Origin: Acidobacterium sp.
GTDB lineage: Bacteria; Acidobacteriota; Terriglobia; Terriglobales; Acidobacteriaceae
Direction of reading: 5' to 3'
DNA length: 33,373 nucleotides
Assembly (NCBI GenBank): GCA_003167515.1
Contig: PMSS01000310.1
Span: 2,039 to 35,411 of the forward strand
The translations under genes and the position numbers were made by a program. A model generated the notes under the pieces. The model did no database searches. It was not told where the DNA came from and saw only the letters and a program-made list of their open reading frames with translations. Numbering within the stretch: the stretch's first letter is position 1; the number at the start of each line of letters is the position of its first letter. Positions 4,607 through 28,610 of this stretch are shown here, piece by piece.

Positions 4607-6472
4607 TGGATGCTGCGCGCGTCTTCAGCGTTGGCTTTTACGAAGGCTACCACTCTGTTTACCAGGCAACCGGGGGCGTCGATTTTCGAATCCAATGGTC
4701 TTTCGCGAGGCATATCTTTGCAGAAGCTCGAAGCGGTCGCACCATCAACTCGGCCCATCCCCTTGAGTCTCATCCTCATGGCAGCGTTAGCCGTTCATCT
4801 GCCGCTCCTGTTGATGGAACTGCCGCTGAAGTCGTACGACACAAATTTCCACATTTTTTTCGCCTCGCATTATCTCCACCACTGGTTCGATCCCTGGAAC
4901 CCAAAGTGGTATGCGGGTTTTTCACAGACCACGTATCCGCCGTTGCCTCAACAGTGGATCGCACTCGTATCCAGAATTACCGGCCTCGACCTGGCGTATA
5001 TGACGGTCCAGCTGGTCGCCATCCTGCTCCTGGTGGTCGGCGTTTATCGCTTTGCGCTGCTGTGGGTGACCCCACGCGCCGCGTCCCTGGCCGCGCTGGC
5101 TGCCGTGTTTCTCGGCTCGGAAAGCTTTTTGGTGTACTCCGCCGGGCAGCTGTCGACTACGACCGCCGCGCCGCTTTACCTCAACGCGCTGCCGTATCTG
5201 TTTGAGTGGGTTCGGGAAGGGAAGTGGCGTTCCTTCGTCAAAGGTGCTGCTCTCTTTACCGCCGCCGCAGCCGCCCACCACGCCACGCTGCTCTTCGGCT
5301 CCATGTTCTTCGCCATTCCGGTGCTGGCGCTTGTCCTGATCGATCGCCAGGACGGCGAGCGGGTTTCGACTCCAGCGTTCCTCATTCGCACTGTCGTCAT
5401 GACCGTAGTGGTCGCTGCCGCCGTCGCTGTCGTGCTGCTGCCCTTCTGGATCGCGCTGATTCACTATCCCGTTACGCAGACTCCCATCCCGCATGCCAGC
5501 CGCGCAAACTACATTCTGAGCCCACAGTGGGGTCTCAATTACTTCGTTATCCCCTACGGGGCGCTGATTCTGGCACTGCCTTTCATTTTCGTGCGTGGAT
5601 CCGCTGTCACCCGTCTTCGCCCTTTGCTGCTCGGCTTCTGGGTTGCATTCCTGGTCGGGCTCGGCGGAACCACCCCTGTGGGTCATCTGTTGCTGGGCCG
5701 CGCCTTTGACGTCCTGACCATGGAGCGTTTCAGCTACTGGGCTACATTGCTGGCGCTGCCCTTTGTCGGGCTTCTTGCTGCCGAACTGATCGATCGCTAT
5801 CGGGGGCGTGCTGTCGCTGTTCTGACCATTGCCGCGACCTTTACCTGTGCCATGGCCGTGGCCTGGTCAACCTTTCGACCCGCCGATGCCGCAGATTTCA
5901 AGGTCGATTCGGTTGCAGCATGGCTCAATCGCGATGGTCACGATAACTACCGCTACGTGACCCTCGGCTTTGGCAACAAGATATCCCGCCTGTCGGTTCT
6001 CACCGACGCCAGCAGTGTCGATGGCGAGTGGAATTCCGGACGCATGCTGCCGGAGCTGACCGCCCACGGCGGAGCCGCGCTCACCAGTTCAAAGTATTTC
6101 AACAAGGAAGGCCTCGACGCGCTCCGAGCAATTCTCGATCATGCCGATCGCTACGGTCTGAAGTGGGTCTTTGTCCGGGATCCCTACTACGAGCCGCTGC
6201 TTACCTTCGGCGGCTGGCGTCGCGTCGACGATCTGGAAGACCGCACCATCATTGTGTGGAGCAAGGACGGTGTGCCTCCCGCCGCGCCGGTGAACGCGCC
6301 GCAAATTCCTCCGCACTGGCAGGGACTGATGTGGGGAACCTTGCCCTTTGGCAGCAGCCTTCTGGCAATTTTTGTCGTCCTGGCTCTTCCGGAAAGGCAG
6401 CGGCGCAGAGCTGCCGACGTTGAGCCTGCTGTCATGGATAAAGATCTCGTCCCAGGAAGGATGTTCTCGTGA
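4589..6472 (+). CDS. Multi-pass membrane protein, PF10131-like (GT-C-type glycosyltransferase-like)
   Basis: The protein has about ten or more hydrophobic segments from roughly residue 55 to 450, then a soluble domain and a last TM (PFGSSLLAIFVVLAL). The first extracytoplasmic loop contains DTNFHIFFASHYLHHW and then WNPKWYAGF with YPPLPQQW. This is the loop pattern of the '6-pyruvoyl-tetrahydropterin synthase related' membrane family (PF10131), which resembles GT-C glycosyltransferases using lipid-linked sugars. Function is therefore inferred as glycan transfer or polymerisation at the inner membrane. The start is unresolved. ATGs at 4589, 4598 and 4610 overlap or abut the divergent TPR gene. 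A TTG at 4718 preceded 7 nt upstream by GAGG would leave a divergent promoter region and still sit before TM1. The stop overlaps the next gene's GTG (GTGA), indicating an operon. Confidence 0.7.
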   Translation: MHRMVHWMLRASSALAFTKATTLFTRQPGASIFESNGLSRGISLQKLEAVAPSTRPIPLSLILMAALAVHLPLLLMELPLKSYDTNFHIFFASHYLHHWFDPWNPKWYAGFSQTTYPPLPQQWIALVSRITGLDLAYMTVQLVAILLLVVGVYRFALLWVTPRAASLAALAAVFLGSESFLVYSAGQLSTTTAAPLYLNALPYLFEWVREGKWRSFVKGAALFTAAAAAHHATLLFGSMFFAIPVLALVLIDRQDGERVSTPAFLIRTVVMTVVVAAAVAVVLLPFWIALIHYPVTQTPIPHASRANYILSPQWGLNYFVIPYGALILALPFIFVRGSAVTRLRPLLLGFWVAFLVGLGGTTPVGHLLLGRAFDVLTMERFSYWATLLALPFVGLLAAELIDRYRGRAVAVLTIAATFTCAMAVAWSTFRPADAADFKVDSVAAWLNRDGHDNYRYVTLGFGNKISRLSVLTDASSVDGEWNSGRMLPELTAHGGAALTSSKYFNKEGLDALRAILDHADRYGLKWVFVRDPYYEPLLTFGGWRRVDDLEDRTIIVWSKDGVPPAAPVNAPQIPPHWQGLMWGTLPFGSSLLAIFVVLALPERQRRRAADVEPAVMDKDLVPGRMFS

Positions 6473-7599
6473 CAGGTGGACGTCTCCTCGCAGTTTTTCT
6501 GTGCCTCGCGACCGTGGGGCTGGTTGTGATCGGCACTCTTTGGCCCGTTCCCGCGGCGGCGGCTTGGGCGGGTGGCACCGGCGGCTTCATCAGTTCCTCA
6601 TCGACACCGGAAGGAGCGGTGAACAACTTTGCCAATGACCTCGGTCATCACGCGTGGCAGGAGGCCTATTCCACCCTCGCGAATAAAGGCAAATTCACCG
6701 AGCAGGACTTTGTCCGTGACATGACGGGTAGTTATCCCGGTCTGCGCACGTACGCGAGCCTGGACAACTTCGAGGTGCGGCCACTGCATGCTTCCGACAA
6801 TGAGGCGCAGGTGGAACTGCGACTGCACTGGTCAACCGTGGTTGGCACTTTCCTCGACACGCGCACCCTGCAGGTTGTCAAAAACGGGGATCATTGGGCG
6901 CCCGTATGGCCCATCGTGAAAGAGCAGCACGTCCCGCCGCAGGTGATCCCAGTAACTTACCTGCGCTGGGATGTGATCTATCGCGGCCCGGAAGATGACT
7001 GGGGTGCACAGGACGTGGAAGCGCCGCACGTCCGCATCATCGACATGCACCCGGTCGAGCGCGCCGCCGGCGTAGTCGTCCTCGGTGAACTCCTGAACGA
7101 AGATGTGGTGCCGGCGTATGTCTCGGTGAAGGCTACCCTGCTCGGCAAGAACGGATCGCCGATCGCCACCGAAGATAGCTTCGACAAGATTTCTCATCTG
7201 CTCCTGCCGAAGCAGGTCACGCCCTTTCTCATCACGTTCCCCAACGTCTCACTCTCCGACGTCGACAGCATCCACATGGACCCCACCTCGAGCCTCGTCG
7301 CTGCCTCCGCCGACCCCGTGATAGAGATTCAGAATCAGAAACTGAGCCCTGCGCCGGACGCCTGGTTCAGCGGGAGTCTCGTGAACCAGAGCGGGCAGAA
7401 CGTAAGCATCGCCCACGTCCTTGGCACCTTCTATGACCAATCAGGTCAGCTGGTCTGGGTGGCGGATCAATACATCGACCGTGCGCTATTGCCGCAGACG
7501 CCCGTCTCTTTCGCCATCCCCGTTCCCGAAGACCTTGCCAGGAAAATCAGCACCGAACGCGCTGTAGTCGCGACCTACAGTCCTGGCGGCTTCCAATGA
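6469..7599 (+). CDS. Secreted or membrane-anchored protein with NTF2-like and tandem FxLYD-like domains
   Basis: I do not recognise a named family for this 376-residue protein. The GTG start overlaps the preceding stop (GTGA). An N-terminal hydrophobic segment (residues ~5-30) is a signal peptide or anchor. Residues ~42-145 look like an NTF2/DUF4878-type alpha+beta domain (EGAVNNFANDL, then strands such as AQVELRLHW). The rest has two beta-rich segments with the pattern 'V.L.G.L.N......V.V.ATL...G', at about 190-270 and 285-360, resembling FxLYD domains of bacterial surface proteins. It is the first of three exported proteins in a row between a PF10131-like membrane protein and a GT2. A periplasmic accessory role in glycan assembly is an inference from context. 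Confidence 0.7.
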   Translation: MTGGRLLAVFLCLATVGLVVIGTLWPVPAAAAWAGGTGGFISSSSTPEGAVNNFANDLGHHAWQEAYSTLANKGKFTEQDFVRDMTGSYPGLRTYASLDNFEVRPLHASDNEAQVELRLHWSTVVGTFLDTRTLQVVKNGDHWAPVWPIVKEQHVPPQVIPVTYLRWDVIYRGPEDDWGAQDVEAPHVRIIDMHPVERAAGVVVLGELLNEDVVPAYVSVKATLLGKNGSPIATEDSFDKISHLLLPKQVTPFLITFPNVSLSDVDSIHMDPTSSLVAASADPVIEIQNQKLSPAPDAWFSGSLVNQSGQNVSIAHVLGTFYDQSGQLVWVADQYIDRALLPQTPVSFAIPVPEDLARKISTERAVVATYSPGGFQ

Positions 7600-8468
7600 A
7601 ACACGCCTTCACATTCCTGATCGGCGTCACGGTCTCCGCCGGCGCCCTGCCAGCTCTGGCACAAAGCGGAAATCTTGACCTGCCCAAAAGTATCGTGGCC
7701 GGCAGCGCGTTTTCGATTCAGAGCACAAGCAGCGCCCAGGGAGTTCTGTATATCGTTGGACCCGGCCAGGTGCTGAAGCGCGACGTTCAACCTGGTCAGC
7801 CCATCACCATCGCTGCTGGAGACCTCGATTGTGCCGGTCACTACCTCGCGGTGCTGACCAGTGGCTCCTCGACAGAAACCGGCGAGTTCGACGTAGTTCC
7901 GGGCAGTCAGCCGGCGACGCTCAGCTTTCTGGCGAAACCCTCTCGTCTCCCCGTGGGACTGCAGAGCGGGATCAGCGGCGCTGTGTACATCTTTGACGCC
8001 TTTCAGAATCTGATAACCGCGCCGACCCCGGTGTCCTTTCAGCTTTCGATTCCCTCTGAAGCGACACAGTCGCGAACTGTGGTCAGCCGCCAGGGGGCAG
8101 CGTGGACCGATATGAACTCCGGATCGAAAGACGGGAACGCAAAGTTCGTCGCTCAAGCCGGCGATGTTTCTGCTACCCGCGTCATCCAGCAGGTTCCCGG
8201 CGATCCCTGCGGGCTGAAGATGAGCGCCAAAAAAGTAGGCGAACAGATTCAACTCGAAACCGATCCGCTGCGCGACTGCAGTGGGAACGCCGTAACCGAC
8301 GGTACCATCGTTACGTTTACAGAATCCTGGAACGGCGGGCAAACTACGGTGGACGTGCCTCTGAAACACGGAATCGCTCAGGCGGAAGTACCCGCTTACA
8401 ACGGCGCAAGAATCTCTGTAGCGACCGGCGTGGTGATGGGGAACGAGATTCGGTGGGCAAACCAATGA
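7596..8468 (+). CDS. Secreted protein with bacterial Ig-like (BIG1-type) domains
   Basis: The 290-residue protein has a clear signal peptide (MKHAFTFLIG to ALPALAQ, cleavage after ALA). The first ~90 mature residues form a beta-rich domain. Next come segments typical of invasin-type Ig domains: GAVYIFDAFQNLITAPTPV, then DGNAKFVAQAGD, and a second copy with DCSGNAVTDGTIVTF. Its ATG overlaps the upstream stop by 4 nt and its own stop overlaps the next ATG, so it lies in the middle of a translationally coupled set. The family fits extracellular adhesion or scaffolding. Here it probably works in the periplasm or at the surface with the neighbouring glycan genes. No catalytic motif is visible. Confidence 0.75.
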   Translation: MKHAFTFLIGVTVSAGALPALAQSGNLDLPKSIVAGSAFSIQSTSSAQGVLYIVGPGQVLKRDVQPGQPITIAAGDLDCAGHYLAVLTSGSSTETGEFDVVPGSQPATLSFLAKPSRLPVGLQSGISGAVYIFDAFQNLITAPTPVSFQLSIPSEATQSRTVVSRQGAAWTDMNSGSKDGNAKFVAQAGDVSATRVIQQVPGDPCGLKMSAKKVGEQIQLETDPLRDCSGNAVTDGTIVTFTESWNGGQTTVDVPLKHGIAQAEVPAYNGARISVATGVVMGNEIRWANQ

Positions 8469-8962
8469 TCCGGCCGCTTGTAATTTTGTTGGCCGCGTTT
8501 GCGGCATCCGGCGCCTTTGGTGCGGATCAGGCATCGGTACAAATAGAGCCCACCACCTTGCAGGGGCCGAGGCCGCTGGCAAAAGAGACGGCAACCGCAG
8601 TGGTGCGCGATTATCTCGAGGCCTGGCAGAGTTTAAGCGCCGCACTTGAGCAAAACCGCACAGATTTGCTCAATCAGGACTTTGTCGGCACAGCGAAGGA
8701 TAAATTCGCGGAAACGATTGAAGAGCAACAGAAACTGGGCATTCGCACGCGTTATCAGGAGCGCTCCCACGACATCCGGATTATTTTCTACTCTCCGGAA
8801 GGACTTTCTGTTGAGTTAGAAGACAACATTGCATATGACGTGCAACTCCTTGACCACAATAAGGTTCAAACCACACAACTGGTTCGCGCACGCTACGTTG
8901 CCGTGTTGACACCCGCAGAGGTTCGCTGGCGAGTGCGCGTTCTGCAAGCTGATTCAAATTGA
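8465..8962 (+). CDS. Small secreted protein, NTF2-like fold suspected
   Basis: The ORF track shows a longer ORF starting at 8102, but that N-terminal part is a shadow of the preceding gene. The real start is the ATG at 8465, which overlaps the upstream TGA (ATGA) and gives 165 residues with a signal peptide (MIRPLVILLAAFAASGAFG, cleavage near GAFG/ADQ). The mature part begins with a helix (AVVRDYLEAWQSLSAALEQN), continues with a mixed region and ends with two or three beta strands (VRARYVAVLT, VRWRVRVLQA). This order resembles an NTF2/SnoaL cone without recognisable catalytic residues. Function is unknown. It is the last gene of the coupled trio, about 100 nt before the GT2. Confidence 0.7.
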   Translation: MIRPLVILLAAFAASGAFGADQASVQIEPTTLQGPRPLAKETATAVVRDYLEAWQSLSAALEQNRTDLLNQDFVGTAKDKFAETIEEQQKLGIRTRYQERSHDIRIIFYSPEGLSVELEDNIAYDVQLLDHNKVQTTQLVRARYVAVLTPAEVRWRVRVLQADSN

Positions 8963-9068
8963 TGTAGCTGCCATGCAATCGAAGACCGTACGACCGACAT
9001 GCAGACAAAATCCAGGCCAGTCGCGAAAGAGAGTACTAGCCTTTGGAAAAATCCCAAGGAGGAAGTCA

Positions 9069-10055
9069 ATGATCTCGGTCGTCGTACCAATCTTCAACGA
9101 GGAAGAGAACATTCTCCTCTTCCACGAAGCCGTTGCCTATGCCTTAAGAGACATCGGCGAGGACTGGGAGGTGGTCTACGTCAATGACGGTTCGAGGGAC
9201 TCCTCACTGGATATACTCCGCGGACTGCAGTCCGCCGACTACCACGTCGTTGTGGTCGATCTGTCGCGCAACTGGGGGCACATGGGCGCGATCTCGGCGG
9301 GCCTGCAGACAGCCCGCGGCGATGCTGTTGTCATGATGGATGGTGACTTCCAGGATCCCCCGGAAGTTTTGCCGCAGTTAGTCGAAGCATGGCACCAGGG
9401 ATCTCAGGTCGTAGTGGCCGTCAGGCGGAGCCGGCAGGAACGCCGCAAGGTTCTCGCCAAGCTGTTCCCGATCTTTTATCGCGTGCTGGGCGCCCTATCC
9501 GATTTTCCCATACCTCTGAACGCCGGAATTTTCGGTCTCATGGACCGGCAGGCCGTCGACGCGATCAACGCCATGCGCGAAAACAACCGCTACCTGCCTG
9601 GCCTGCGCGCGTGGGTCGGTTATAGCAACACCGTTATCTACTACGATCGGCAGGATCGCGCCGCTGGCGACGGCAAGCTGACGTTCGTCAGCCGCATCAA
9701 GTATGCGATGGACGCGATCACCAGCTTCAGTTTCAAGCCGTTGCGACTCTGTTTCGCGCTGTCGGCGCTCTCCTGTTGCGTGGCCGCCATACTTGGGCTG
9801 TCAGGCCTGATATCGAGCAGCGCATTGACCGCCGTGGGCTGCGGCGTGGCGGCGGCAATCTTCATGGTCGGAGGCGCGGTCCTCCTCTCTCTCGGCGTAC
9901 TGGGTGAATATCTGGGTCGCGTCTACGACGAAGTCCGGCAGAGACCGCTGTCAATCGTCAACAAGGTCTACTACGCTTCGGATATGGCTGGGGCTCTGGT
10001 GGACCAGTCCGCAAACGAGGAAGAGCCAGCGGCGAGGATACTGCGGATCGCTTAA
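9069..10055 (+). CDS. GtrB/DPM1-type glycosyltransferase family 2, polyprenyl-phosphate sugar transferase
   Basis: The start is set by a strong Shine-Dalgarno sequence (AAGGAGG) 6 nt before the ATG at 9069; the longer ORF in the track is not needed. The 328-residue protein opens with the GT2 GT-A fold (ISVVVPIFNEEENI, then VNDGSRDSS). The metal/nucleotide motif DGDFQDPPE matches the D-D-LQDPPE signature of the GtrB/DPM1 group. Two C-terminal TM segments (residues ~235-255 and ~265-290) followed by LGEYLGRVYDEVRQRP are also typical. Such enzymes load a sugar onto undecaprenyl phosphate at the cytoplasmic face, supplying GT-C enzymes such as the PF10131-like gene upstream. Donor sugar unknown. 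Confidence 0.9.
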   Translation: MISVVVPIFNEEENILLFHEAVAYALRDIGEDWEVVYVNDGSRDSSLDILRGLQSADYHVVVVDLSRNWGHMGAISAGLQTARGDAVVMMDGDFQDPPEVLPQLVEAWHQGSQVVVAVRRSRQERRKVLAKLFPIFYRVLGALSDFPIPLNAGIFGLMDRQAVDAINAMRENNRYLPGLRAWVGYSNTVIYYDRQDRAAGDGKLTFVSRIKYAMDAITSFSFKPLRLCFALSALSCCVAAILGLSGLISSSALTAVGCGVAAAIFMVGGAVLLSLGVLGEYLGRVYDEVRQRPLSIVNKVYYASDMAGALVDQSANEEEPAARILRIA

Positions 10056-10076: not shown

Positions 10077-11030
10077 CTACTGCGATCCGGCCGGGCAGGT
10101 GGGTATCCCCGGCTCGATCGCGGTGCCTTCCTCGTAATCGTTCCACGTCGCAATCAGCAGGAAGGGCAGCGTATTGTCTGACGGGTAGTACTGCCGCCAG
10201 AAGTTCAGCGTGTCGGTAAACGTCTTACCGCAGCGTGCTGAGATATGGCGGTTGAGACTCCACGAGGCTTTGCTGTCGTTAAACTGCGCCCAAGCGCCAC
10301 CTACGGCAATCTTGTCGGGATATTTGGTTTGCATGGTGCTGTAGAAGTCGGCGAGATAATCGTCTCCCCAATTGCCCCCGTCCGCCGCCCAGCCCTTTTT
10401 CCCCGGCTGCACCCAGGCATAAAACCCGTCAAAAGCGTTCACGTAGGGGCCGCCGGGCAGGTTTTCGTAGATGAGCAACGGCGCCGGATTCCATTTGTTC
10501 AGATCTTCCCGGACACGGTTCCAATCCGTATGCATGCCCTTGGGAAAGATGAATATGACGGGCCGCCCCTCGTATTCGAGGTACGCCTGCCTTCCTGCGG
10601 AGTCCGGAGCAAAGTAAGTATCGTGAAACATTTTGAAGTCGGAGAGCGTATCGTCGGTCGCGCCGTCTTCCTGATCGGTCTCGTCATACATCATCGCGAC
10701 CTTAAACTTCTGCTCGGCTGCGGCAGTCTGCATCAGAGCGTAGGTCTGATCGTTGAAGGGGTCGCGATCCCCATACCAGTCCACGACAAAGCCGGAAATC
10801 CCCATGGCCTTTGCCTGGCGGATTTGCTTGCGGATCTCGGCTGGGTCGTGCGACGAATATCCGACGGAAATGTGGGCAGGATGGCCGAACCACGGTTCAT
10901 ACACTGCAAGCAGCTGCGGCGCACTGCTGCCGTGCTTCGGTCGAAGCCGCGTCACCTTCTGCGTTGGCGATTGAGAACATCCGTGAACAAGCAGAAGAAG
11001 GGAAAATAATGCAGTCGTTATACGAGCCAT
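10077..11030 (-). CDS. GH99-like lipoprotein (putative endo-mannosidase-type glycosidase)
   Basis: I place the start at the ATG at 11030 (317 residues) because it begins a short lipoprotein signal, MARITTALFSLLLLVHGC, with the lipobox ending HGC. The 35 residues upstream in the ORF track are not signal-like. The mature protein opens with LLAVYEPWFGHPAH and then GFVVDWYGDRDPFND, as in GH99/GH71-like (beta/alpha)8 proteins. Near the C-terminus it has WNDYEEGTAIEP, matching the conserved W-N-E-(W)-x-EGT-x-IEP region that carries acidic active-site residues in GH99. It converges on the GT2 and diverges from the flippase, so it sits inside the glycan locus. A role trimming or releasing the exported glycan in the periplasm or at the outer membrane is inferred. 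Confidence 0.75.
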   Translation of the reverse strand: MARITTALFSLLLLVHGCSQSPTQKVTRLRPKHGSSAPQLLAVYEPWFGHPAHISVGYSSHDPAEIRKQIRQAKAMGISGFVVDWYGDRDPFNDQTYALMQTAAAEQKFKVAMMYDETDQEDGATDDTLSDFKMFHDTYFAPDSAGRQAYLEYEGRPVIFIFPKGMHTDWNRVREDLNKWNPAPLLIYENLPGGPYVNAFDGFYAWVQPGKKGWAADGGNWGDDYLADFYSTMQTKYPDKIAVGGAWAQFNDSKASWSLNRHISARCGKTFTDTLNFWRQYYPSDNTLPFLLIATWNDYEEGTAIEPGIPTCPAGSQ

Positions 11031-11066
11031 TACGGGAATGGTTCTTAGACGGCGGCAACACCGGCC

Positions 11067-13205
11067 ATGGTTGTCCGGCATCGGCGTTTTGACGCTGACC
11101 CTGCGAGCAGCCGGACGGTTGAAGGCCGCATCCAATGCTCAGTTCAAAACACCTCTCTCATAGAGGGAGACGGCCTCGATGGATTCGCACGATTTCTCGC
11201 CGCCAACCCCACCGCGACGGAGTTTGTAGCTTTGGAGATTAGCCCGACAGACCGATCAAGAACTCTGCATGCCCGTATTTTGTCGGGAAGTTTCGTACTG
11301 ATTCTGGGGTCGGGCCTCGCCACCGCAGCCAATTTTGTCTACAACATGGCGGTTGCGCGGTTTCTGGGCCCCACCGGCTACGGTCACGCAACGGCTGTCT
11401 ACACTCTTCTGATTCTGACCTCAGCGGCAACCCTCTCTTTCCAGATCATCTCCGCCAAGGTAGTCGCCCAGCAAAGCTCTCTCGAAGCCAAAGCTGCCGT
11501 CTATCGCGCATTTCACCACGCCGCGTGGGCCTGCGGGATCGCCCTCGCCCTGCTCCTGCTCGTATTTCAGAGCTGGATCGCCGCCTACCTCAACCTGCCA
11601 AGCCCCGTTCTCGTGGCCTTGTTGGCCGCCGGTGTTGCCTTTTACGTTCCCCTCGGCAGTCGGCGCGGCTACATTCAGGGGGTCTGTGGTTTCCGCATCC
11701 TCGCCACGAATATGGTGCTCGAAGGAGTCGTTCGACTCTTCGGCTCGCTCCTGCTGGTCAAACTTGGCTTCGGCGTCCGCGGAGTGGTCGCCGCCAATGC
11801 CGCGGCGGTTGCGGTAGCCTATTTCGCCGCCATACCCCGGTCCGCTCCGCGTGTACCCAACCCGCTGCAATTCCAATATGCCCTTCGCGAGACCTTCCAG
11901 GCCCTGATCTTCTTTTCCGGCCAGGTCCTCATCAACAATTGTGACATCGTTCTGGTCAAGCACTTCTTCCTGCCGACAACCGCAGGGCTCTACGCGGCGG
12001 TAGCCATGGTCGGCCGCGTCATCTTTTCCTTCTCTTTCGCAGTTGTCAATTCCATGTTTCCGCTGGTGGCAGGCACCCGCCAGGAAGAGAGAAGGGGACT
12101 GAAGGCGATCGCGACGTCCTGCTTACTCGTCCTGGTCATCGGCTCTGCTTTCGCTCTCGGCCTGCGTCTTGCCCCGGCGGCGATCTGGACAACCATGTTC
12201 GGAAGTGGCTTTGCAATTAGCGGGCAATTCGGACTCCCTTACCTCCTGGCGCTGTATGCCATAACTACGGTCGTCTATTCGCTCAGCGTGGTGATCACGA
12301 CCTACGAAATGTCCTACAAAATCGCGAATGCCAGCTGGATTCAGCTGGCTTTCAGTGGCATCGTTATTGCCGGCATTTGCCGATTCCATTCGTCGCTACG
12401 AGAAGTTATCTGGGTACAACTGGTTGTGATGATCGTGTTGCTCGTCGTTGTGGCTGTCCCCTTCATCCTTAGCTCGCTGTCGGAGTCGCGTATGTTGCAG
12501 GGAACTGCGGGCGCCGGTCCCATCAGGATCATGCGCCGCGTATCGGAAGACCAAGTTATCGCCGAATTCCTCAGGAACGATATCAATAGTCCAGCCTTCC
12601 ACGATTATCGAGAGTCCCTGGGTCACCTAGTCACCGATCCGAATCTCGATGATCCCAGTGAGAACGCGAAAAGGAAAGCCCTCTTTTTCATCCGGCATCG
12701 CGCACTGTGGAAGGAGCTGCCCAGAGATACCGAATGGTATGAGGTGGAACTGCGGCCGGCGGAGTTCTCGCAGATCAGGTTCTTTCCAAGAGCACAGTGG
12801 CGCAAGCTCGCAAAGGGAGACTTCTCCGCTCCCGCTGTGGTCGAGCGCCTCCGCAGTCAGGAGAATCTCATCCACCCTGGCTTCCGGTCGAAAATCGACT
12901 CCATTCGCAAGCGGTTGGGGCCGCAGGATGCAGCGTTGGGCACCGTGGTTCTGATCGGCATCAGCGAGAAGGAGCCGGTTACCGTTCTTGATGGCAATCA
13001 CCGCCTGGCCGCGGCGATGCTCGCCTCCTCACCGGACGGATTTGAGAAGCTGCGCTTCCTCTGCGGACTATCGCCGACGATGACGAGATGTTGCTGGTAC
13101 AACACCAATCTGGTCACACTGCTTCGCTATGGAAAGAACATCGTCGGGCACATTGTGCGGGATCCCGAGGCAGAGCTTGCGCGTCTATTGCAGACCAGTG
13201 GCTAG
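11067..13205 (+). CDS. Polysaccharide flippase (MATE/MVF-like) fused to a ParB/Srx-like C-terminal domain
   Basis: Residues ~75-475 form about 12-14 TM helices of an O-antigen/exopolysaccharide flippase. The first conserved motif is NFVYNMAVARFLGPTGYG, followed later by the DIVLVKHFF segment common in Wzx-like proteins. Residues ~490-712 are soluble and contain VTVLDGNHRLAAAML near residue 640. This is the DGxHR-type loop of the ParB/sulfiredoxin superfamily, whose members include CTPases (ParB), sulfiredoxin and free-serine kinases (SerK, SbnI). The reading frame is uninterrupted across both parts, so this is a fusion. The start is uncertain: ATG 11067 follows the track, but a TTG at 11232 with GGAG 9 nt upstream leaves a more usual short N-terminus before TM1. 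The flippase would export lipid-linked glycan; the domain's activity is unknown. Confidence 0.85.
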   Translation: MVVRHRRFDADPASSRTVEGRIQCSVQNTSLIEGDGLDGFARFLAANPTATEFVALEISPTDRSRTLHARILSGSFVLILGSGLATAANFVYNMAVARFLGPTGYGHATAVYTLLILTSAATLSFQIISAKVVAQQSSLEAKAAVYRAFHHAAWACGIALALLLLVFQSWIAAYLNLPSPVLVALLAAGVAFYVPLGSRRGYIQGVCGFRILATNMVLEGVVRLFGSLLLVKLGFGVRGVVAANAAAVAVAYFAAIPRSAPRVPNPLQFQYALRETFQALIFFSGQVLINNCDIVLVKHFFLPTTAGLYAAVAMVGRVIFSFSFAVVNSMFPLVAGTRQEERRGLKAIATSCLLVLVIGSAFALGLRLAPAAIWTTMFGSGFAISGQFGLPYLLALYAITTVVYSLSVVITTYEMSYKIANASWIQLAFSGIVIAGICRFHSSLREVIWVQLVVMIVLLVVVAVPFILSSLSESRMLQGTAGAGPIRIMRRVSEDQVIAEFLRNDINSPAFHDYRESLGHLVTDPNLDDPSENAKRKALFFIRHRALWKELPRDTEWYEVELRPAEFSQIRFFPRAQWRKLAKGDFSAPAVVERLRSQENLIHPGFRSKIDSIRKRLGPQDAALGTVVLIGISEKEPVTVLDGNHRLAAAMLASSPDGFEKLRFLCGLSPTMTRCCWYNTNLVTLLRYGKNIVGHIVRDPEAELARLLQTSG

Positions 13206-13249: not shown

Positions 13250-13642
13250 ATGACAACCGGTTTGCGTGCTGTGGCTGTAAAGAGATTCCCGGACGAGCTC
13301 AGTGTGAAGCTGAAGCTCACCTTCCTTCACGAAATCAGCGGCGTTATGAGTGCAAATCGGCCACGTCTCGTCCTTGACTGCTCTGGTCTCGGTGAATGCA
13401 ACAGCTCCGCCATTCATCTCCTGCTGCATTGTCTCGAAGAGGCGATGAAACGCAACGGAGATGTCAGACTCGCTGCAATCCCGCCCGCAGCAGCCGTGGC
13501 TCTGGTCAGCACCGGAGTAGCGCGGCTGTTTGAGAAGTTCGATACCACCGCTGAGGCGGTGAACAGCTTCCATCAACTTCCCAAAGATACGGAAAGACAG
13601 CCGTTGTGGGGCCCGCAACAGGAATCAGAAAAGGCCGCGTAA
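13250..13642 (+). CDS. STAS-domain protein (anti-sigma-factor-antagonist-like)
   Basis: This 130-residue single-domain protein is preceded by a purine-rich Shine-Dalgarno region (GGGAGGGG). It has the STAS core RLVLDCSGLGECNSSAIHLLL. The position of the phospho-accepting Ser in SpoIIAA-like proteins is kept (N-S-S), but the usual preceding Asp is Asn and the following Gly is Ala. The next strand/helix (DVRLAAIPPAAAVALVSTGVARLF) is also typical. STAS proteins are usually partner-switch regulators or small binding modules. No anti-sigma kinase is nearby. Located between a flippase and a kinase-like gene, it may regulate the glycan machinery; this is inference. The start might lie slightly downstream, but the STAS core is not affected. 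Confidence 0.8.
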   Translation: MTTGLRAVAVKRFPDELSVKLKLTFLHEISGVMSANRPRLVLDCSGLGECNSSAIHLLLHCLEEAMKRNGDVRLAAIPPAAAVALVSTGVARLFEKFDTTAEAVNSFHQLPKDTERQPLWGPQQESEKAA

Positions 13643-13643
13643 G

Positions 13644-13679
13644 GTGCCCGGTCCCGGCGTTGAACCCGCCGGGTGGCAC
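13644..13679 (+). promoter_or_regulatory. Intercistronic hairpin between the STAS gene and the next gene
   Basis: Immediately after the STAS stop codon there is a perfect 7-bp stem (CCCGGCG / CGCCGGG, loop TTGAACC). It is extended by an outer 5-bp pairing (GTGCC / GGCAC) across a small asymmetric bulge. The structure ends directly before the Shine-Dalgarno sequence (GGAGG) of the following gene. No T-run follows, so it is more likely an mRNA-stability or processing element, or a partial attenuator, than a complete intrinsic terminator. Confidence 0.5.
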
Positions 13680-13690
13680 GGAGGTAAGAC

Positions 13691-14179
13691 ATGAAAACTG
13701 CACGATCATGGTTTCAACGGCAGGTCGCCGTTTGCCTGATGTTCCTGCTGGCTGCCCCACTCGGGGTAGCGGCTCAACAGGAAACCCCGCCCGTCCAGCA
13801 AGCAGCTGCAACGTCTGCCCAGATCCCTCCGCAAACCGCCCAGCTGGCGGATGCTGCGCCATTGCCCGATAGTCCCAATCCCGCAGTCAGTCCCGCAGCG
13901 CCGCAATCCAGCACGGCAAGCCCACAATCCAACTCGTCGCAGACAACTCCGCAACAACAAAACGGCCCGTCGCAACCACTGGGAACCGCCGCCGCGCCTT
14001 ATGAACCGGGCACCGGTGTTGCCGCATCCAGACCGTCGGGAGCGGCTATCGCTCCAGCACGCCAGAAGCGCACGCGATCTTTCATGATCAGGGTTGGACT
14101 CCTGATCGGGGCTGCCGTTGCTGTCGGCACGGTTATCGCCCTTTCCAGTGCGAGCCCGAGCCAGCCGTCGGCAAAATAA
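13691..14179 (+). CDS. Pro/Gln/Ser-rich exported protein with C-terminal membrane segment
   Basis: The family is not recognised. The 162-residue protein has a signal peptide (FQRQVAVCLMFLLAAPLGVAAQ, cleavage near VAA/Q). About 95 low-complexity residues follow, rich in Pro, Gln, Ser and Ala. Near the C-terminus a basic stretch (ARQKRTRSF) is followed by one TM helix (LLIGAAVAVGTVIALSS). A good Shine-Dalgarno sequence (GGAGG) lies upstream. The layout suggests a disordered periplasmic linker tethered to the inner membrane. It lies between the STAS and P-loop kinase-like genes, all on the plus strand with gaps under 50 nt, so co-transcription with the flippase is likely. Confidence 0.7.
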   Translation: MKTARSWFQRQVAVCLMFLLAAPLGVAAQQETPPVQQAAATSAQIPPQTAQLADAAPLPDSPNPAVSPAAPQSSTASPQSNSSQTTPQQQNGPSQPLGTAAAPYEPGTGVAASRPSGAAIAPARQKRTRSFMIRVGLLIGAAVAVGTVIALSSASPSQPSAK

Positions 14180-14215
14180 GGAGTTGCTGCGTATCCATCA
14201 CGGGAGGCCCCTGCA

Positions 14216-14932
14216 ATGCGATCGGAAGCCAAACACAAACGCGCCGGTTTTGTGAGCTTTTCCGGCATCGATGGCGCGGGAAAGAGCACGCAGATTAATC
14301 TTCTTCGCGCTCGTTTGCAGCTAGCCGGTCTCCGCGTTCGGGTGATTACATTTTGGGATGACGTTGCCTGCTTAACCGGATTGCGCGAGGCCACCGGGCA
14401 CAAGCTGTTTAAAGGAGACAAAGGCGTCGGCACCCCCGAGTCACCCATCAACAGGCGGGACAAAAACGTCAGATCACACTTCATGACGATGGTTAGGTTA
14501 TGCCTTTACCTCGCTGATGCCGTTGCGCTTCGCCGCACAGTGAAAAGGGCACTCGTGTCCAACGAAGATTTCGTGATCTGTGACCGCTATGCCTATGACG
14601 AGCTCGTGAACCTGACTCCGCACAATTGGTTCATCCGGGCTTATGTGCGGCTGGTCATGAAGCTCGTCCTGCGGCCGGATATCAGCTATTTTCTGGACGC
14701 TGATCCTATTCAGGCCCGCGCCCGCAAGCCCGAGTATCCGCTCGATTTCCTCTATACCTGCCGAGAATCGTATTTGACCCTGAGCGAACTGGCGGGTGGA
14801 ATCACGATCATTCCTCCCATGCCAGTGCGTGAGGCTGAGCGCGAGATCCTGAAGCACCTGCTGCTCCGAGACACGCAATGCGACCGGAGAATAGCATTCG
14901 TTGGAGAGGACGATCTTGGCATTCCCGCGTAG
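14216..14932 (+). CDS. Thymidylate-kinase-like P-loop protein of a polysaccharide locus
   Basis: The 238-residue protein has a perfect Walker A motif (FSGIDGAGKST, residues ~12-22). It also has the DRY-like motif of thymidylate kinases (VICDRYAYDELVNL, around residue 120) and a FLDADPIQARARKPEYPLD segment like the lid/LID-adjacent region (normally LD.. P..a..R). A Shine-Dalgarno sequence GGGAGG lies 8 nt before the ATG. It differs from housekeeping Tmk in its long insert after the P-loop region (residues ~45-95) and in its genomic setting, next to flippase, STAS and secreted proteins. Related divergent Tmk-like proteins are often encoded in glycan clusters with no assigned substrate. It may phosphorylate a sugar or nucleotide precursor; this is inference. 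Confidence 0.8.
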   Translation: MRSEAKHKRAGFVSFSGIDGAGKSTQINLLRARLQLAGLRVRVITFWDDVACLTGLREATGHKLFKGDKGVGTPESPINRRDKNVRSHFMTMVRLCLYLADAVALRRTVKRALVSNEDFVICDRYAYDELVNLTPHNWFIRAYVRLVMKLVLRPDISYFLDADPIQARARKPEYPLDFLYTCRESYLTLSELAGGITIIPPMPVREAEREILKHLLLRDTQCDRRIAFVGEDDLGIPA

Positions 14933-16779: not shown

Positions 16780-17193
16780 TTAAAGGGCGACGACATTGAG
16801 GCCAGGGATGGCCTCGAAATGTTTGGCGTTGAGCGTCACCACATCGAAGCCCAGATGCAAAGCTGTGGCTCCAATGATCAGGTCCTGGACAGCGATGGAA
16901 ATGCCTTTCGCCGCCTGTTCACCCTCGATGCGCCCGGCCAGCTGAGCAATCTCCAGGGTTAGTGGGTGCGTGATCAGGTCGTGGAAGACGCCTTCCACGA
17001 ATACCCGGCGTCGCACGCGATCTGCGTCTGTCCTCGCACGATAAATGCCGTGTGTCAGTTCCACTGCGCTGACCGAGGACAATGCGACGTCAATCTCGCC
17101 ATGCAAGTCCCGCGACCGGCGGAGGACGTCTTCGACGCCTTCGCCCCGCCGTTCGCTTTCGATCAGGATGCTGGTGTCCAGGATCAGGCCCAC
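16780..17193 (-). CDS. vapC: PIN-domain toxin, VapC family
   Basis: The 137-residue protein has the PIN nuclease layout: LDTSILIE with Asp6, SAVELTHG with Glu45, and IAVQDLIIGATAL with Asp104. A VVTLNAKHF strand follows, where Asn122 stands near the fourth site. These residues coordinate Mg2+/Mn2+ in VapC ribonucleases, which cleave tRNA or rRNA when free of antitoxin. The length is normal and no catalytic residue is obviously missing. The ATG at 17193 lies 4 nt after the stop of the antitoxin gene, so the two are coupled. The target RNA cannot be predicted. Confidence 0.92.
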   Translation of the reverse strand: MGLILDTSILIESERRGEGVEDVLRRSRDLHGEIDVALSSVSAVELTHGIYRARTDADRVRRRVFVEGVFHDLITHPLTLEIAQLAGRIEGEQAAKGISIAVQDLIIGATALHLGFDVVTLNAKHFEAIPGLNVVAL

Positions 17194-17197
17194 TGAG

Positions 17198-17482
17198 TCA
17201 TTCCCATACTGAGGTATCGCGCGGCTTGCGACTGCGGATGATCTCCTCGAGATCGGCGGCGAAGCCCGCGTCCATCACCGGCTTATAGCCCAGATCTTTC
17301 GACCGGGCTTCGGCCAAAGCGATGGACTCGGAGATGGACCGGCGCGGCGGAGCCGCCGTACGAATCACAGCCACCGGGTTCGCTCCGTTCTCGATCACAA
17401 CCTCCGCGCCAGCGCGCACACGCGCCAGCAGCCCTGGAAAATCGCGCGCAGCATCGTCTTCCGAGATGTGGATCGTTGCCAT
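17198..17482 (-). CDS. Phd/YefM-type antitoxin of the adjacent VapC
   Basis: The start is placed at the ATG at 17482 (MATIHISEDDAARDF, 94 residues); the track's upstream extension is not conserved in character and runs through the promoter. The first ~55 residues match the Phd/YefM fold: ARDFPGLLARVRAGAEVVIENGANPVAVI has the typical 'F..ll..v..Ge.v.I...g.p.avl' pattern. The C-terminal part, rich in Arg, Glu and Asp (residues ~60-94), would be the disordered toxin-neutralising tail. It lies immediately upstream of vapC. A palindrome in its promoter suggests autorepression. Confidence 0.88.
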   Translation of the reverse strand: MATIHISEDDAARDFPGLLARVRAGAEVVIENGANPVAVIRTAAPPRRSISESIALAEARSKDLGYKPVMDAGFAADLEEIIRSRKPRDTSVWE

Positions 17483-17489
17483 ACTCAAG

Positions 17490-17512
17490 ATGATACCAGG
17501 AATGCTTTCCTG
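17490..17512 (-). promoter_or_regulatory. Promoter with operator palindrome for the antitoxin-vapC operon
   Basis: On the minus strand TATCAT (17495..17490, 5/6 match to TATAAT) lies 7 nt before the ATG. The perfect inverted repeat CAGGAA-TGCT-TTCCTG (17497-17512) falls just upstream, where the -35/-10 spacer would be. No Shine-Dalgarno sequence is visible between the -10 and the ATG, so the transcript may be leaderless. The position fits an operator bound by the Phd-type antitoxin; this is inferred. Confidence 0.55.
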
Positions 17513-17573
17513 ACTATTCGCAGGACACACTCCAGTCTTGATGTTCGACCCTGCGACCCGCGAATTCCGTTCC

Positions 17574-18332
17574 TCAGCTCGCCGGCTTAACATGCACGAT
17601 CGTGCAGTTCACCTTGGCCGTGTTCGCAATGAAAGCCCCAATCCGAATATTGCTGTAGCTGCTGGTGGCATTCGCATTTGTTGGCCCGTTCAGCGTTACT
17701 CGGTATTGCGACAGGTCGGCTCCGTTCGCGTCGTCCTGCTCGCATTGCACTACCGCCGAAGTAAGCGCGACCGCCGAGTTGTTGGCCCACGTTGCCGTCG
17801 TCAGAACCAGAAACCCGTTCTCCGACTGCCAATGCGCGTTGAATGCCTGCTGGTTTACCAGCGCCGCATTCCCGCCTGACCCGGAACCGGCGGGCGGCGG
17901 CGCACTGGGCGCGCCAGGCTGAGAAGCCGGCTGGCTGGCAGCCGGAGGGTTCGACGCAGGAGTGCTCGCGCCCGGGTGCGACTTCGAGTAGTAGTAGTAA
18001 ACGAGCCCGGCGACAATCACGATGACGATGATCGTCCCCAGCATCGAATTGCGGTTCTGTGCGCCTGCCGGAGCCTGTCCCGGTGGCACAGCCACCACGA
18101 CCGGACCCTGCGCCGGTGCAACATACTGCGGCGGTGCGCTCGCGAATGTTTGAGTCGCTGGCTGAGGTGCGCTCGCGAATACCTGAGCCGCTGGCGGAGG
18201 AACGGGCGCGGCCGGCGGTGGTGAGCTCGGCGCCCCCGCTGCTGCCGTCTTCGCAGAAACGTCCGCTCCACACTGCGCGCAAAAGCGCTCTTTGCCCGTT
18301 AGAGTATTCCCACAATTGCTGCAAAATGCCAT
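17574..18332 (-). CDS. Zinc-ribbon, Pro-rich, single-TM protein with exported C-terminal domain
   Basis: The start is the ATG at 18332 (MAFCSNCG), supported by GGGAGAGG upstream; the longer track ORF is rejected. The protein has 252 residues. Residues 4-21 form a zinc ribbon of the CxxC-x10-CxxC type (CSNCG and CAQCG). A long Pro/Ala-rich linker (~25-105) follows, then one TM helix (TIIVIVIVAGLVYYYY) and a second Pro/Ser-rich linker. The C-terminal ~85-residue beta domain (LVLTTATWANNSAVALTSA) has two Cys that could form a disulfide. The topology suggests a cytoplasmic zinc ribbon and a periplasmic sensing or binding domain. It lies 67 nt downstream of the PrsW gene, which has a matching N-terminal ribbon, so the two may act together. 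Confidence 0.75.
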   Translation of the reverse strand: MAFCSNCGNTLTGKERFCAQCGADVSAKTAAAGAPSSPPPAAPVPPPAAQVFASAPQPATQTFASAPPQYVAPAQGPVVVAVPPGQAPAGAQNRNSMLGTIIVIVIVAGLVYYYYSKSHPGASTPASNPPAASQPASQPGAPSAPPPAGSGSGGNAALVNQQAFNAHWQSENGFLVLTTATWANNSAVALTSAVVQCEQDDANGADLSQYRVTLNGPTNANATSSYSNIRIGAFIANTAKVNCTIVHVKPAS

Positions 18333-18399
18333 GGACGATCCTCTCCCTCGAGAAAACGGATGAACTACCCCGCCTTTGCGGCGGAAGTTTGCGGCGCAA

Positions 18400-19698
18400 C
18401 TATGTAACCGCGCTGCCTGCGGGCTGCATCGAAGCCTCAACCCTCTGCAAGGTCCCCTGCAGATCCTGCTTCTGCTCTTCCTTCACCTGCCGCAGCCCCT
18501 GCTGCACCAGACCAAACACAACGTACCAGCTAACCACGGCCGACAGAATATAGTTCCCGCCGAAAGGAAGCTGCAACTGAGCGGGCAGATCCCAGATCGT
18601 GTGCAATACCACTGGAATCATGAACGCCTTCAGGAACCGCGAATCCATCAGCATCGATGGACTCGTCGGCAACGCCCCTTTGACGCGCCAGAACGCCCCG
18701 GCCGCGATCGCCGTCCACGCCACATGCCCCCAGGGCGTCAGCAGCGCGCGCGTCCGCAGCACTTGCAGCATCAGGATGATGCCCGCTTTGAGGTTCGCAC
18801 CAGCCAGCAGCCCCTGATTCAACGCGTATCCGGAAGTCTCAAACGCCGCGAATCCCGCGCCCACCGTCGCTCCGAAAAGCAATCCGTTCAGGATGTACTT
18901 GTACCGCACCTCGCGCACCACAATCACGACGGTCAGCAGCTTGGCGACTTCTTCGACGATTCCGGCCGCTGTGTCTCCCAGCGAACCCAGAACCGGCAAC
19001 GTATATCCGATCAGCGCGAAGACCAGCGAAACGACCGCGCCAAACAGAAACAGCGTCGCGAGCCTGTGTAGCGAGACGTTCCGCGGGCTGTTCATCTCAA
19101 AGAAAAACGTCAGCGTCGTCAGCGGAACGGCGAACGCTCCGAGGATCATCACCGCTGGAACCAGGTTTCCCGCATCCGACAAATGCAGCAGTGTGAACGT
19201 GAAGACCAGATACGAGATGACCATCGTCGCCAGCACGCGGAAGAAGAGCCACGGCTTCGGCCAGCCCGCCTGCACCAGATCGATCGGAGGCGTGGTTTTC
19301 CTCGTTCCCACCGCAAGGTAGTCTTCCACGTCCTCGGTGCTGCGCTTCTTGAAGACATCCGAGAACATCTCCTTCAGGCTGAACCCTTCCAGCTGTTCAG
19401 TGGAAGCCAGTTTCTGCAGCCTGCCCTGCAGGTTGCGCAGCAGATTTAACTGCTGAATGGTGTGCGGCTGCGCTGCTGGATGGGCTGCGACGTAATACAC
19501 CTGCTGCGGGGCTCCTGGTACCTGCGGTGGAACCGGATAAACCGGCTGCGGAACATACTGGACCATGGGCTGAGCAGAGGCTGGCTGTTGCGGGGTGGGA
19601 CCGGTCGCAGCCCCTTCAGGACGCGTTACCGCCGTCCCGCATTGCATACAAAACTTATTTTGCGGTGGAACCAGGGAGCCACATTGAACGCAGTACAC
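18400..19698 (-). CDS. PrsW-family intramembrane metalloprotease with N-terminal zinc ribbon
   Basis: The true start is a GTG at 19698 with GGAG 8 nt upstream. It gives MYCVQCG and 432 residues and removes a 38-residue artefact from the track ORF. Residues 3-20 are a CxxC-x10-CxxC zinc ribbon, followed by a Pro/Gln-rich linker to ~residue 75 and a helical region. From ~150 on there are about eight TM segments. PrsW/CAAX-protease-superfamily motifs are present in order: IVEEVAKLL near residue 249, AGFAAFETSG near 287, a HVAWTA segment, and HTIWDLPAQ. The Glu-Glu and His residues are the expected metal/catalytic set. PrsW proteins cleave membrane anti-sigma factors in Bacillus. The substrate here is unknown, but the downstream zinc-ribbon single-pass protein is a candidate partner. 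Confidence 0.88.
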   Translation of the reverse strand: MYCVQCGSLVPPQNKFCMQCGTAVTRPEGAATGPTPQQPASAQPMVQYVPQPVYPVPPQVPGAPQQVYYVAAHPAAQPHTIQQLNLLRNLQGRLQKLASTEQLEGFSLKEMFSDVFKKRSTEDVEDYLAVGTRKTTPPIDLVQAGWPKPWLFFRVLATMVISYLVFTFTLLHLSDAGNLVPAVMILGAFAVPLTTLTFFFEMNSPRNVSLHRLATLFLFGAVVSLVFALIGYTLPVLGSLGDTAAGIVEEVAKLLTVVIVVREVRYKYILNGLLFGATVGAGFAAFETSGYALNQGLLAGANLKAGIILMLQVLRTRALLTPWGHVAWTAIAAGAFWRVKGALPTSPSMLMDSRFLKAFMIPVVLHTIWDLPAQLQLPFGGNYILSAVVSWYVVFGLVQQGLRQVKEEQKQDLQGTLQRVEASMQPAGSAVT

Positions 19699-19797
19699 CG
19701 GAAATTCTCCGTCAGGAAAAGGCTGGGGGGATTGGTATAGGAACGTAGCATGGAGCGCTTTTCGAAGTAAAGAAAAGATTGCGCGCTCGGGAAGTGG

Positions 19798-21465
19798 TTG
19801 GGGAACCTGCACTTGCCCCGTTCCGTACTAAGGACCGCACAGGCCCCGTACCAACGGCTGCGTAGTAAGATTCGATACCCACGAGGATTCCCCACGAACG
19901 CAGCGAAAGCCATCCCGTCGACGAGCCCCGAGCCCTCCCAGCCCCACACCGAACGCTGGTTCACCTCCGGCCCGGCCATCGTGGCCGCCATCGCGATCCT
20001 GAAGCTCGCGCTCCAGCTCCATGCCGCGCCCCACTACGGCATCTTCCGCGACGAGATGTACTACCTCGCCTGTGGCCAGCACCTCGGCTGGGGTTACGTC
20101 GACCATCCGCCGGGGATGCCCTTCATCGCCTGGCTGGTCAGCCACACCCTCGGTACGTCTCTCATCGCATTGCGTCTGCTGCCGGCCCTCGCCGGAGCCG
20201 CGCTCGTCTGGCTCAGCGGCACGATGGCTCGCCAGATGGGTGGCGGCCGCACGGCCCAGGCCCTCGCCGCTCTCGCTGTCCTCGTAGCACCCATTTACAT
20301 GCTCCTGCAGCACTGGTTCACCATGAACGCCTTCGAGCCGCTCCTGTGGATGGTCTGCGCCTGGTGCGTCCTGCGCTACGTCGAGAGCGGCGACGCGCGC
20401 TGGTGGCTCTGGGTTGGCGTTCTCTGCGGCATCGGCCTCGAAATGAAGTACTCGGTCGTCCTCTTCGCTGCGGGGCTGATCGTCGGACTCGCCCTCACGC
20501 CCCATCGCCGTGTTCTCGCCTCAAAATGGTTCTGGCTCGGCTGTCTCGCCGCGTTTCTTATCTTCCTGCCGCATCTGGTGTGGCTCATCCACCACCACTT
20601 CCCTTTTCTTGAATACGAGCAGAACGTCCGCATGACCTCGCGCGATGTGCGCCGCGCCCCGCTGGCCTTTCTGCTCGACCAGGCCAACATCCTCAATCCC
20701 GTCTCGGCTCTCCTGGGGGTCGGCGGACTGGTGTGGCTGTTTACACGCGCCGGCGCACCCTACCGCATCCTCGCGTGGACCTTTCTGGTCGTCCTCGGCG
20801 CGTTGATGGTCACGCAGGGCAAGAACTACTACGTTGCGCCGGTTTATCCCATGATCTTCGCCGCCGGCGCAGTCGCCTTCACACAATGGATACGCAGCGC
20901 CTGGCTGCGCGGAGCCTACACGGCCCTGCTCGCCGCCTCCGGCATCCTCCTCGCGCCGCTGGCGATGCCGCTCCTGCGCCCGGAGACGTTTCTCCGCTAC
21001 GAACACGCGATCCACATCTCGACCCCGAAAGCAGAGAATCAGCGCACCGGACCGCTGCCGCAAATCTTCGCCGACGAGTTCGGCTGGGAAGACATGGTGC
21101 GCAAAACCGCAGCCGTCTACTGGAGTCTGCCGCCCACCGAACGAGCCCGCACCGCCATCTTCGCGAACTCCTGGGGCGAGGCCGCAGCCGTCGACTATTT
21201 CGGCCCGAAGTACGGCCTGCCCCGCGCCATCAGCGCGCATAATTCCTACTGGCTCTGGGGGCCGCGCGATACTGACGGCAGCACCGTCATCGTTCTCGGC
21301 AGCGACGGCAGCGGCGATCGCGAACATTTCCAGAGCGTCATCGACTCAGGTCAGAAAACCGACAACCCCTGGTCCCGCGAAGACGAACACTTCACGATAT
21401 GGCTCTGCCGCGGACTGCACTGGGATCTCCGCGCCGTCTGGCCGAAGATCAAACACTGGGGATGA
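19798..21465 (+). CDS. GT39/ArnT-type membrane glycosyltransferase (PMT family)
   Basis: The 555-residue protein has about 10-12 TM helices. The first periplasmic loop carries FRDEMYYLACGQHLGWGYVDHPP. The acidic D-E pair and the G-x-VDHPP motif are hallmarks of the PMT_2 group of GT-C enzymes, which transfer sugars from polyprenyl-phosphate donors. Other family patterns are YMLLQHWFTMNAFEPLLW and GLEMKYSVV. The C-terminal ~150 residues are soluble, including a segment with SWGEAAAVDYFG. The start is uncertain. No ATG precedes TM1; TTG codons at 19798 and 19813 and a GTG at 19981 are the options, and none has a strong Shine-Dalgarno sequence. It is divergent from the PrsW gene. It could accept donors made by a GT2 such as the one at 9 kb. 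Confidence 0.85.
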   Translation: MGNLHLPRSVLRTAQAPYQRLRSKIRYPRGFPTNAAKAIPSTSPEPSQPHTERWFTSGPAIVAAIAILKLALQLHAAPHYGIFRDEMYYLACGQHLGWGYVDHPPGMPFIAWLVSHTLGTSLIALRLLPALAGAALVWLSGTMARQMGGGRTAQALAALAVLVAPIYMLLQHWFTMNAFEPLLWMVCAWCVLRYVESGDARWWLWVGVLCGIGLEMKYSVVLFAAGLIVGLALTPHRRVLASKWFWLGCLAAFLIFLPHLVWLIHHHFPFLEYEQNVRMTSRDVRRAPLAFLLDQANILNPVSALLGVGGLVWLFTRAGAPYRILAWTFLVVLGALMVTQGKNYYVAPVYPMIFAAGAVAFTQWIRSAWLRGAYTALLAASGILLAPLAMPLLRPETFLRYEHAIHISTPKAENQRTGPLPQIFADEFGWEDMVRKTAAVYWSLPPTERARTAIFANSWGEAAAVDYFGPKYGLPRAISAHNSYWLWGPRDTDGSTVIVLGSDGSGDREHFQSVIDSGQKTDNPWSREDEHFTIWLCRGLHWDLRAVWPKIKHWG

Positions 21466-28310: not shown

Positions 28311-28316
28311 GACATA

Positions 28317-28322
28317 ATTCTA
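28317..28322 (-). promoter_or_regulatory. -10-like element 6 nt before the DUF433 gene start
   Basis: The minus strand reads TAGAAT (5/6 match to TATAAT), then TATGTC, then ATG. GGAG occurs upstream of the hexamer but is 12 nt from the ATG, too far for a usual Shine-Dalgarno sequence. The spacing matches three other candidate leaderless starts in the window. The -35 is unclear. Confidence 0.4.
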
Positions 28323-28535
28323 CTCCGAACAGGGAAGATTATCTGCAAATGCTCCCACTCCCTGTTCTCTGCGTATCCACCCCCCGCCAACCTATCCCAA
28401 CGGACGGGCATCCACCAGGTCGTAACCCATTGCGAAACAAAGCTGGATCACCCACCCATTAGCAATTAAGGTTCCCTCGCCCCTCCCACCTTCGGGTCAT
28501 TCGGCACATCGCTCCCACCGATCCGCGCGTCTAAA

Positions 28536-28604: not shown

Positions 28605-28610
28605 CATTCG

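Follow-up and report, generated by a model that had tools for sequence, protein, structure and literature searches.

Organization of the locus

We analysed a stretch of 33,373 nucleotides (hereafter the window) from an Acidobacteriaceae metagenome bin (G000:C50:2039-35411). It carries three short plus-strand genes in a row, encoding a STAS-domain-only protein (STAS), a Pro/Gln-rich membrane protein (PRO) and a thymidylate-kinase-like protein (TMKL), directly after a gene that joins a flippase (FLIP) to a ParB-like domain (PARB). The surrounding genes of the locus are listed with them in Table 1. The original prediction had given this trio gaps shorter than 50 nt and a Shine-Dalgarno sequence for each gene. 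Both statements are correct: each gene is separated from the one before it by 44 nt (STAS), 48 nt (PRO) or 36 nt (TMKL), and purine-rich motifs are found at each start (AGGGAGGGG, GGAGG and GGGAGG, respectively). The STAS gene product scores 37.6 bits against Pfam STAS_2 (cut-off 29.2), and TMKL scores 46.1 bits against Pfam Thymidylate_kin (cut-off 27). Sequence, order and strand of the three open reading frames are kept across tens of genomes, far above chance, which confirms that they are real genes.

Table 1. Genes and domains of the locus, with positions in the window
Feature	Position	Strand	Remarks
TPR protein, 1423 aa	335..4606	-	ends like an outer-membrane beta-barrel; TPR part resembles PrsT/PgaA/BcsC
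Polytopic membrane protein	4679..6472	+	weak PTPS_related match; putatively GT-C-like; start uncertain
h376	6469..7599	+	exported or anchored; no known family; co-occurs with the system
h290	7596..8468	+	exported; no known family; conserved in the locus
h165	8465..8962	+	small exported protein; no known family; conserved in the locus
GT2	8973..10055	+	polyprenyl-phosphate type (DPM1/ArnC/PgfS-like); two C-terminal TM helices
GH71/GH99-like glycoside hydrolase	10077..11036	-	signal peptide; ORF to 11135
FLIP-PARB	11067..13205	+	MOP/Wzx-like flippase with C-terminal ParB-like domain; conserved from about 11220; start uncertain
ParB-like domain of FLIP-PARB	12504-13202	+	contains GNHR; C-terminal to the flippase
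STAS	13250..13642	+	STAS-domain-only protein, 130 aa; Pfam STAS_2
PRO	13691..14179	+	bitopic Pro/Gln-rich membrane protein, 162 aa; no known family
TMKL	14216..14932	+	thymidylate-kinase-like P-loop kinase with rebuilt acceptor region, 238 aa; Pfam Thymidylate_kin

No known RNA was detected in the window, and a scan for sigma-70 promoters between positions 10000 and 16000 gave no match. The gap between STAS and PRO (13643-13690) contains a stem-loop, GTGCC..CCCGGCG-loop-CGCCGGG..GGCAC, that is strong when folded. It was rejected as a conserved element, being absent from relatives and only modestly above shuffled sequences. Elsewhere in the window, genes for PIN-domain proteins and a DUF433 protein, toxin-antitoxin-like, are present at 16780-17593 and 27705-30167, and a PrsW-family intramembrane protease with an N-terminal zinc ribbon (18400-19812) adjoins a zinc-ribbon protein (17574-18440).

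The neighbourhood was then surveyed with tblastn and iterated HMMs in 37 named loci plus some 20 additional regions of 20 kb. The same system is found across these loci: the TPR protein, the polytopic protein, the three exported proteins, the GT2, the GH71/99-like hydrolase, the flippase, the ParB-like domain, STAS, PRO and TMKL. Gene order is identical in about 20 loci; the others keep the trio as a group, and FLIP-PARB either is inserted between STAS and PRO or lies at a distance of a few kb. The neighbourhood is thus conserved in relatives, and STAS-PRO-TMKL is the tightest unit of the locus. The trio had been described as lying behind a flippase. This is true of the window, where the FLIP-PARB fusion is followed by STAS-PRO-TMKL, but it is only one among several layouts. 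In a second layout, STAS-FLIP-PARB-PRO-TMKL, the flippase and the ParB-like protein are encoded by separate genes, PARB directly after FLIP (L025, L091, L097, L099, L100, L104, L105, L107 and L108). In a third, FLIP-PARB is located several kb from STAS-PRO-TMKL or on another contig. In the second and third layouts, the gene directly 5' of STAS, often overlapping its start by ~14 nt, encodes a left-handed-helix protein whose N-terminus resembles a degenerate nucleotidyltransferase and has no Pfam match (L095:11489-12703, L105:14287-15486, L110:8602-9663, L031:5781-6860); none precedes STAS in the window. An ECF-type sigma factor gene lies just 5' of the cassette formed by the left-handed-helix gene and the trio at L102:7412-8170 and L094:12547-13308.

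Distribution and inheritance

Of 120 related genomes, 72 of which belong to one family (f1), the 41 that have TMKL are also the 41 that have PRO. FLIP and PARB also share an identical set of 41 genomes, 40 of them in common with the TMKL/PRO set, and h376 occurs in 41 genomes, 39 in common with TMKL. All five are confined to this one family, with no occurrence outside it among the 120 genomes, and the locus is present in about half of the sampled Acidobacteriaceae. The suggested co-occurrence of flippase-ParB, STAS-linked and Tmk-like genes is therefore nearly all-or-none (TMKL vs. PARB, Fisher P = 6e-18 over the 72 family genomes, uncorrected for kinship). Two genomes are discordant. In G068, which has PARB and no TMKL, the contig ends 0.2 kb after STAS. 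G055 (99% complete) carries STAS-PRO-TMKL without FLIP, PARB or h376 and is a genuine exception, indicating that the trio can persist without this flippase. Mapped onto a tmk gene tree (48 genomes), presence and absence require at least 13 changes, compared with 16.1 for shuffled labels (single-gene tree). The set has therefore often been gained or lost, with its parts moving together.

In a sample of 300 genomes of the phylum, only generic P-loop/Tmk matches were detected outside the family. A phage or plasmid origin was rejected, as plasmids and phages gave no match and viral contigs only generic Tmk at 23-32% identity. Kinship with the tandem Tmk-like genes found in other families of the class was also discarded: these have CHAD, Ppx/GppA, MlaD or SixA-type neighbours and miss the TMKL motifs. 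Such tandem genes (L112, L113, L114, L115, L118) are possibly polyphosphate-related, and some of them have STAS genes nearby (L113). Some genomes carry a second, diverged FLIP-PARB pair (G001:C17, G003:C39, G006:C43) or a second, diverged PARB (G015:C34, G022:C26).

A Tmk-like kinase with a rebuilt acceptor site

When a Tmk-like gene turns up in a polysaccharide locus, it is usually dismissed as misplaced housekeeping. The genome of the window possesses a second, canonical tmk (C476:9954-10262, cut by the contig end). Among 81 relatives, the NCBIfam dTMP kinase equivalog TIGR00041 was matched in all 61 genomes of good quality, and 75 of the 81 show a match above the curated cut-off. A separate housekeeping tmk, the conserved neighbourhood and the co-presence with the ParB-bearing flippase together place the trio, very probably, in a glycan system. 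They thus bear out the earlier proposal that it is not devoted to nucleotide housekeeping.

The kinase core of TMKL is intact. As originally described, the protein keeps Walker A (GIDGAGKST, residues 17-25) and DRY (123-125), both (near-)invariant in 54 relatives, which have 29 invariant positions in common. The unusual insert that had been noticed is real as well: a conserved insert of ~17 residues (62-78) in the acceptor region, together with 4 more residues, is absent from housekeeping Tmk paralogues. We compared the 54 TMKL relatives with 14 housekeeping Tmk, mostly from TMKL-bearing genomes, in an alignment at about 20-25% identity. The P-loop with its acidic residue D19, R57, DR, P154, the lid arginine R170, F178 and Y186 are kept in TMKL. 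The phosphate-site motif T-R-(E/Q)-P-G-G-T of Tmk is replaced by (T)-F-W-D-D-V-A, the base-contact arginine of FxxRAQ by Ala102 behind an invariant Asp101, (A)YQGGGR by (A)NL..., and the acidic lid by RKPEYPLDF; a conserved stretch, GDKGVGxPxxPxNRRDKNVRS, is added. The motifs R(E/Q)PGGT, FxxRAQ (its Arg) and AYQGGGR, which from general knowledge of Tmk structures and this alignment we take to contact dTMP, are conserved in the 14 paralogous Tmk and replaced in the 54 TMKL.

TMKL reaches 42 bits against TIGR00041, far below the cut-off of 83.25. On this score and the motif replacement we rejected a duplicated dTMP kinase. TMKL shares with Tmk (PF02223/TIGR00041; T. maritima 3hjn, A. aeolicus 2pbr) the fold, the P-loop GxDGxGKST, DR(Y/F) and the lid arginine, but differs by the replaced phosphate and base motifs, ~21 extra residues in the acceptor region, the RKPEYPLDF lid, its score below the equivalog cut-off and the separate tmk in the same genome. 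The structure prediction that had been suggested gave a confident Tmk-type core (AF2, pLDDT 88.7), whereas confidence within the ordered core is lowest in the insert (pLDDT about 71-74). The nearest solved structures in Foldseek are without exception thymidylate kinases (prob 1.00; TM by target length up to 0.75), and profile searches also return thymidylate kinases. Since the core is intact and the dTMP-contact motifs are replaced, we infer that TMKL is an active ATP-dependent kinase with an acceptor other than dTMP. A small-molecule kinase with a substrate other than dTMP is fairly likely.

The ParB-like domain of the flippase

The motif GNHR is invariant in 36 sequences of the ParB-like domain and fits the GxxR P-motif of the ParB-CTPase fold defined in a survey (PMC12704722). 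The domain model has a pLDDT of 91.5, and Noc, KorB and SerK are found within its top 12 fold matches, with non-significant E-values of 1-10. The domain probably has a ParB fold. The ParB-CTPase fold is already known beyond chromosome segregation (SerK, SbnI; PMC12704722). PARB resembles these proteins by its GxxR-type GNHR and a weak fold similarity (Foldseek E about 1, not significant), and differs from them by its fusion to a flippase, an arrangement that the survey does not mention. Our literature search for Tmk-like or ParB-domain proteins associated with flippases found no report in the collection of papers searched.

STAS and its membrane partner

The STAS profile matches anti-sigma antagonists, TM1442 being the best. 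In Vibrio fischeri, STAS-only proteins control polysaccharide biofilm post-transcriptionally, and SypA has the phospho-site D-S56-S57-G (PMC10120452). We anchored the alignment on this motif and took the first residue after Asp as the phospho-site. The window copy has a Ser at this position. In its relatives, Ser/Thr is found in 17 out of 58 and absent in 41; 27 have neither candidate position occupied by Ser/Thr. Because the phospho-site lacks Ser/Thr in 41 of the 58 relatives, a conserved classical STAS phospho-switch is unlikely, and we rejected it as a candidate. Neither a GHKL kinase nor a PP2C phosphatase was seen among the locus genes scanned in the window. STAS is comparable to SypA of the V. 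fischeri syp polysaccharide locus in being a STAS-domain-only protein encoded in a polysaccharide locus. It differs in that the phosphorylatable Ser is not conserved, no SypE-like kinase/phosphatase was seen in the locus, and the protein is tied by fusion to a membrane protein.

This membrane protein is PRO. Its hydrophobic segments lie at residues 8-24 and 135-151 in the window copy; a signal/TM segment is found in 50 of 52 relatives and a C-terminal TM segment in all 52, within the conserved signature PAGAAIAPAKQRR-x-RS-TM-SPSxP. PRO is present in a single copy per genome, which argues for a dedicated protein and not for a sorting signal common to many. No Pfam family matched the window copy, and the scan of 52 members gave no recurrent match, on which ground we rejected a minimal Wzz/GNVR co-polymerase: Wzz/GNVR was obtained for one member at E = 0.64, and GNVR is not among the 25 families listed for the 52 members. 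STAS and PRO form a single open reading frame in four loci (L014:1623-2570, L017:7008-7955, L018:6920-7930, L019:6975-7958). The fusion is real in L018, where PRO has lost its start codon.

Proposed role in glycan assembly

Taken together, co-inheritance, paralogue comparison and natural fusions show that these kinases form a dedicated family, remodelled at the substrate site and linked to a flippase with a ParB-like domain. Very probably, STAS-PRO-TMKL is a cassette of a lineage-specific system for envelope-glycan assembly and export in Acidobacteriaceae; to the whole of the explanation that follows, with its kinase and its adaptor, we give even chances. The product of the locus would be a glycan, judging from the gene families present. 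TMKL would phosphorylate a small glycan precursor (a sugar or sugar phosphate, a nucleotide sugar precursor or a lipid carrier) on the cytoplasmic side of the inner membrane. Docked on PRO's cytoplasmic tail, STAS would serve as a membrane adaptor keeping TMKL near the flippase; the poor conservation of the phospho-site points to such an adaptor role. This complete adaptor model is tentative and less likely than not. The ParB-like domain may sense a nucleotide, so that the flippase would perhaps be nucleotide-controlled. The locus could then represent a new class of nucleotide-controlled glycan export, in which a ParB-fold NTPase domain gates the flippase and a Tmk-derived kinase acts on a lipid carrier or sugar intermediate, docked at the membrane by a non-phosphorylated STAS on the PRO anchor, but this we regard as rather unlikely. 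Of the two roles originally offered for the trio, precursor activation agrees with a small-molecule kinase and its rebuilt acceptor site, while phospho-regulation of the classical STAS type does not fit a site that is not conserved.

The nearest folds and profiles of TMKL are NMP kinases and its acidic P-loop residue is kept, so it might instead recycle UMP, CMP or other NMPs, regenerating the nucleotides released by glycosyltransferases, and not be a sugar or lipid kinase at all. The NMP-phosphate and base motifs of Tmk are replaced, however, a conserved insert occupies the acceptor region, and a general recycling enzyme would have no need to be inherited strictly together with PRO; we consider this reading unlikely. 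Incidental placement of a duplicated tmk behind a flippase is hardly credible: TMKL does pass the Pfam cut-off for Tmk homology, but the kept order, the co-occurrence through at least 13 switches and the family-specific invariant positions speak against it, and the distribution contradicts it.

Two further alternatives turn phosphorylation towards proteins. In partner switching of the SypA/SypE kind, phosphorylation of a Ser by TMKL or by a distant kinase would switch STAS. The V. fischeri precedent in a polysaccharide biofilm (PMC10120452) and the Ser of the window copy are in its favour, but the site distribution among the 58 relatives and the lack of a GHKL kinase or PP2C phosphatase among the genes seen in the locus make it quite improbable. 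TMKL could also phosphorylate PRO or another protein, as in the split BY-kinase pairs (CapA/CapB), and thereby control chain length or export. PRO, encoded beside a P-loop kinase in a glycan locus, is indeed bitopic and Pro-rich, with a juxtamembrane motif of basic character and a short SPS tail that is conserved. This is nevertheless very improbable, as the P-loop of TMKL is of the Tmk type and the Wzz/GNVR resemblance of PRO is limited to the single non-recurrent match.

Turning back to the proposed assembly and export system, its locus shares with those of Pel, PNAG and cellulose export (PelB, PgaA, BcsC; PelA hydrolase) a TPR outer-membrane protein, a periplasmic glycoside hydrolase and translocation at the inner membrane. 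It differs from them by a GT2 of the polyprenyl-phosphate type, a putatively GT-C-like protein and a flippase of the MOP kind, with no c-di-GMP receptor seen, and by its ParB-like, STAS and Tmk-like parts. As general background, the exopolysaccharide of acidobacterial Granulicella contains mannose, glucose, galactose and xylose (PMC5259719). The TMKL system sits in a widespread family of soil bacteria, and the locus is present in Acidipila rosea (L016), which has been cultured, so that the role of a Tmk-like kinase in glycan assembly is now directly testable.
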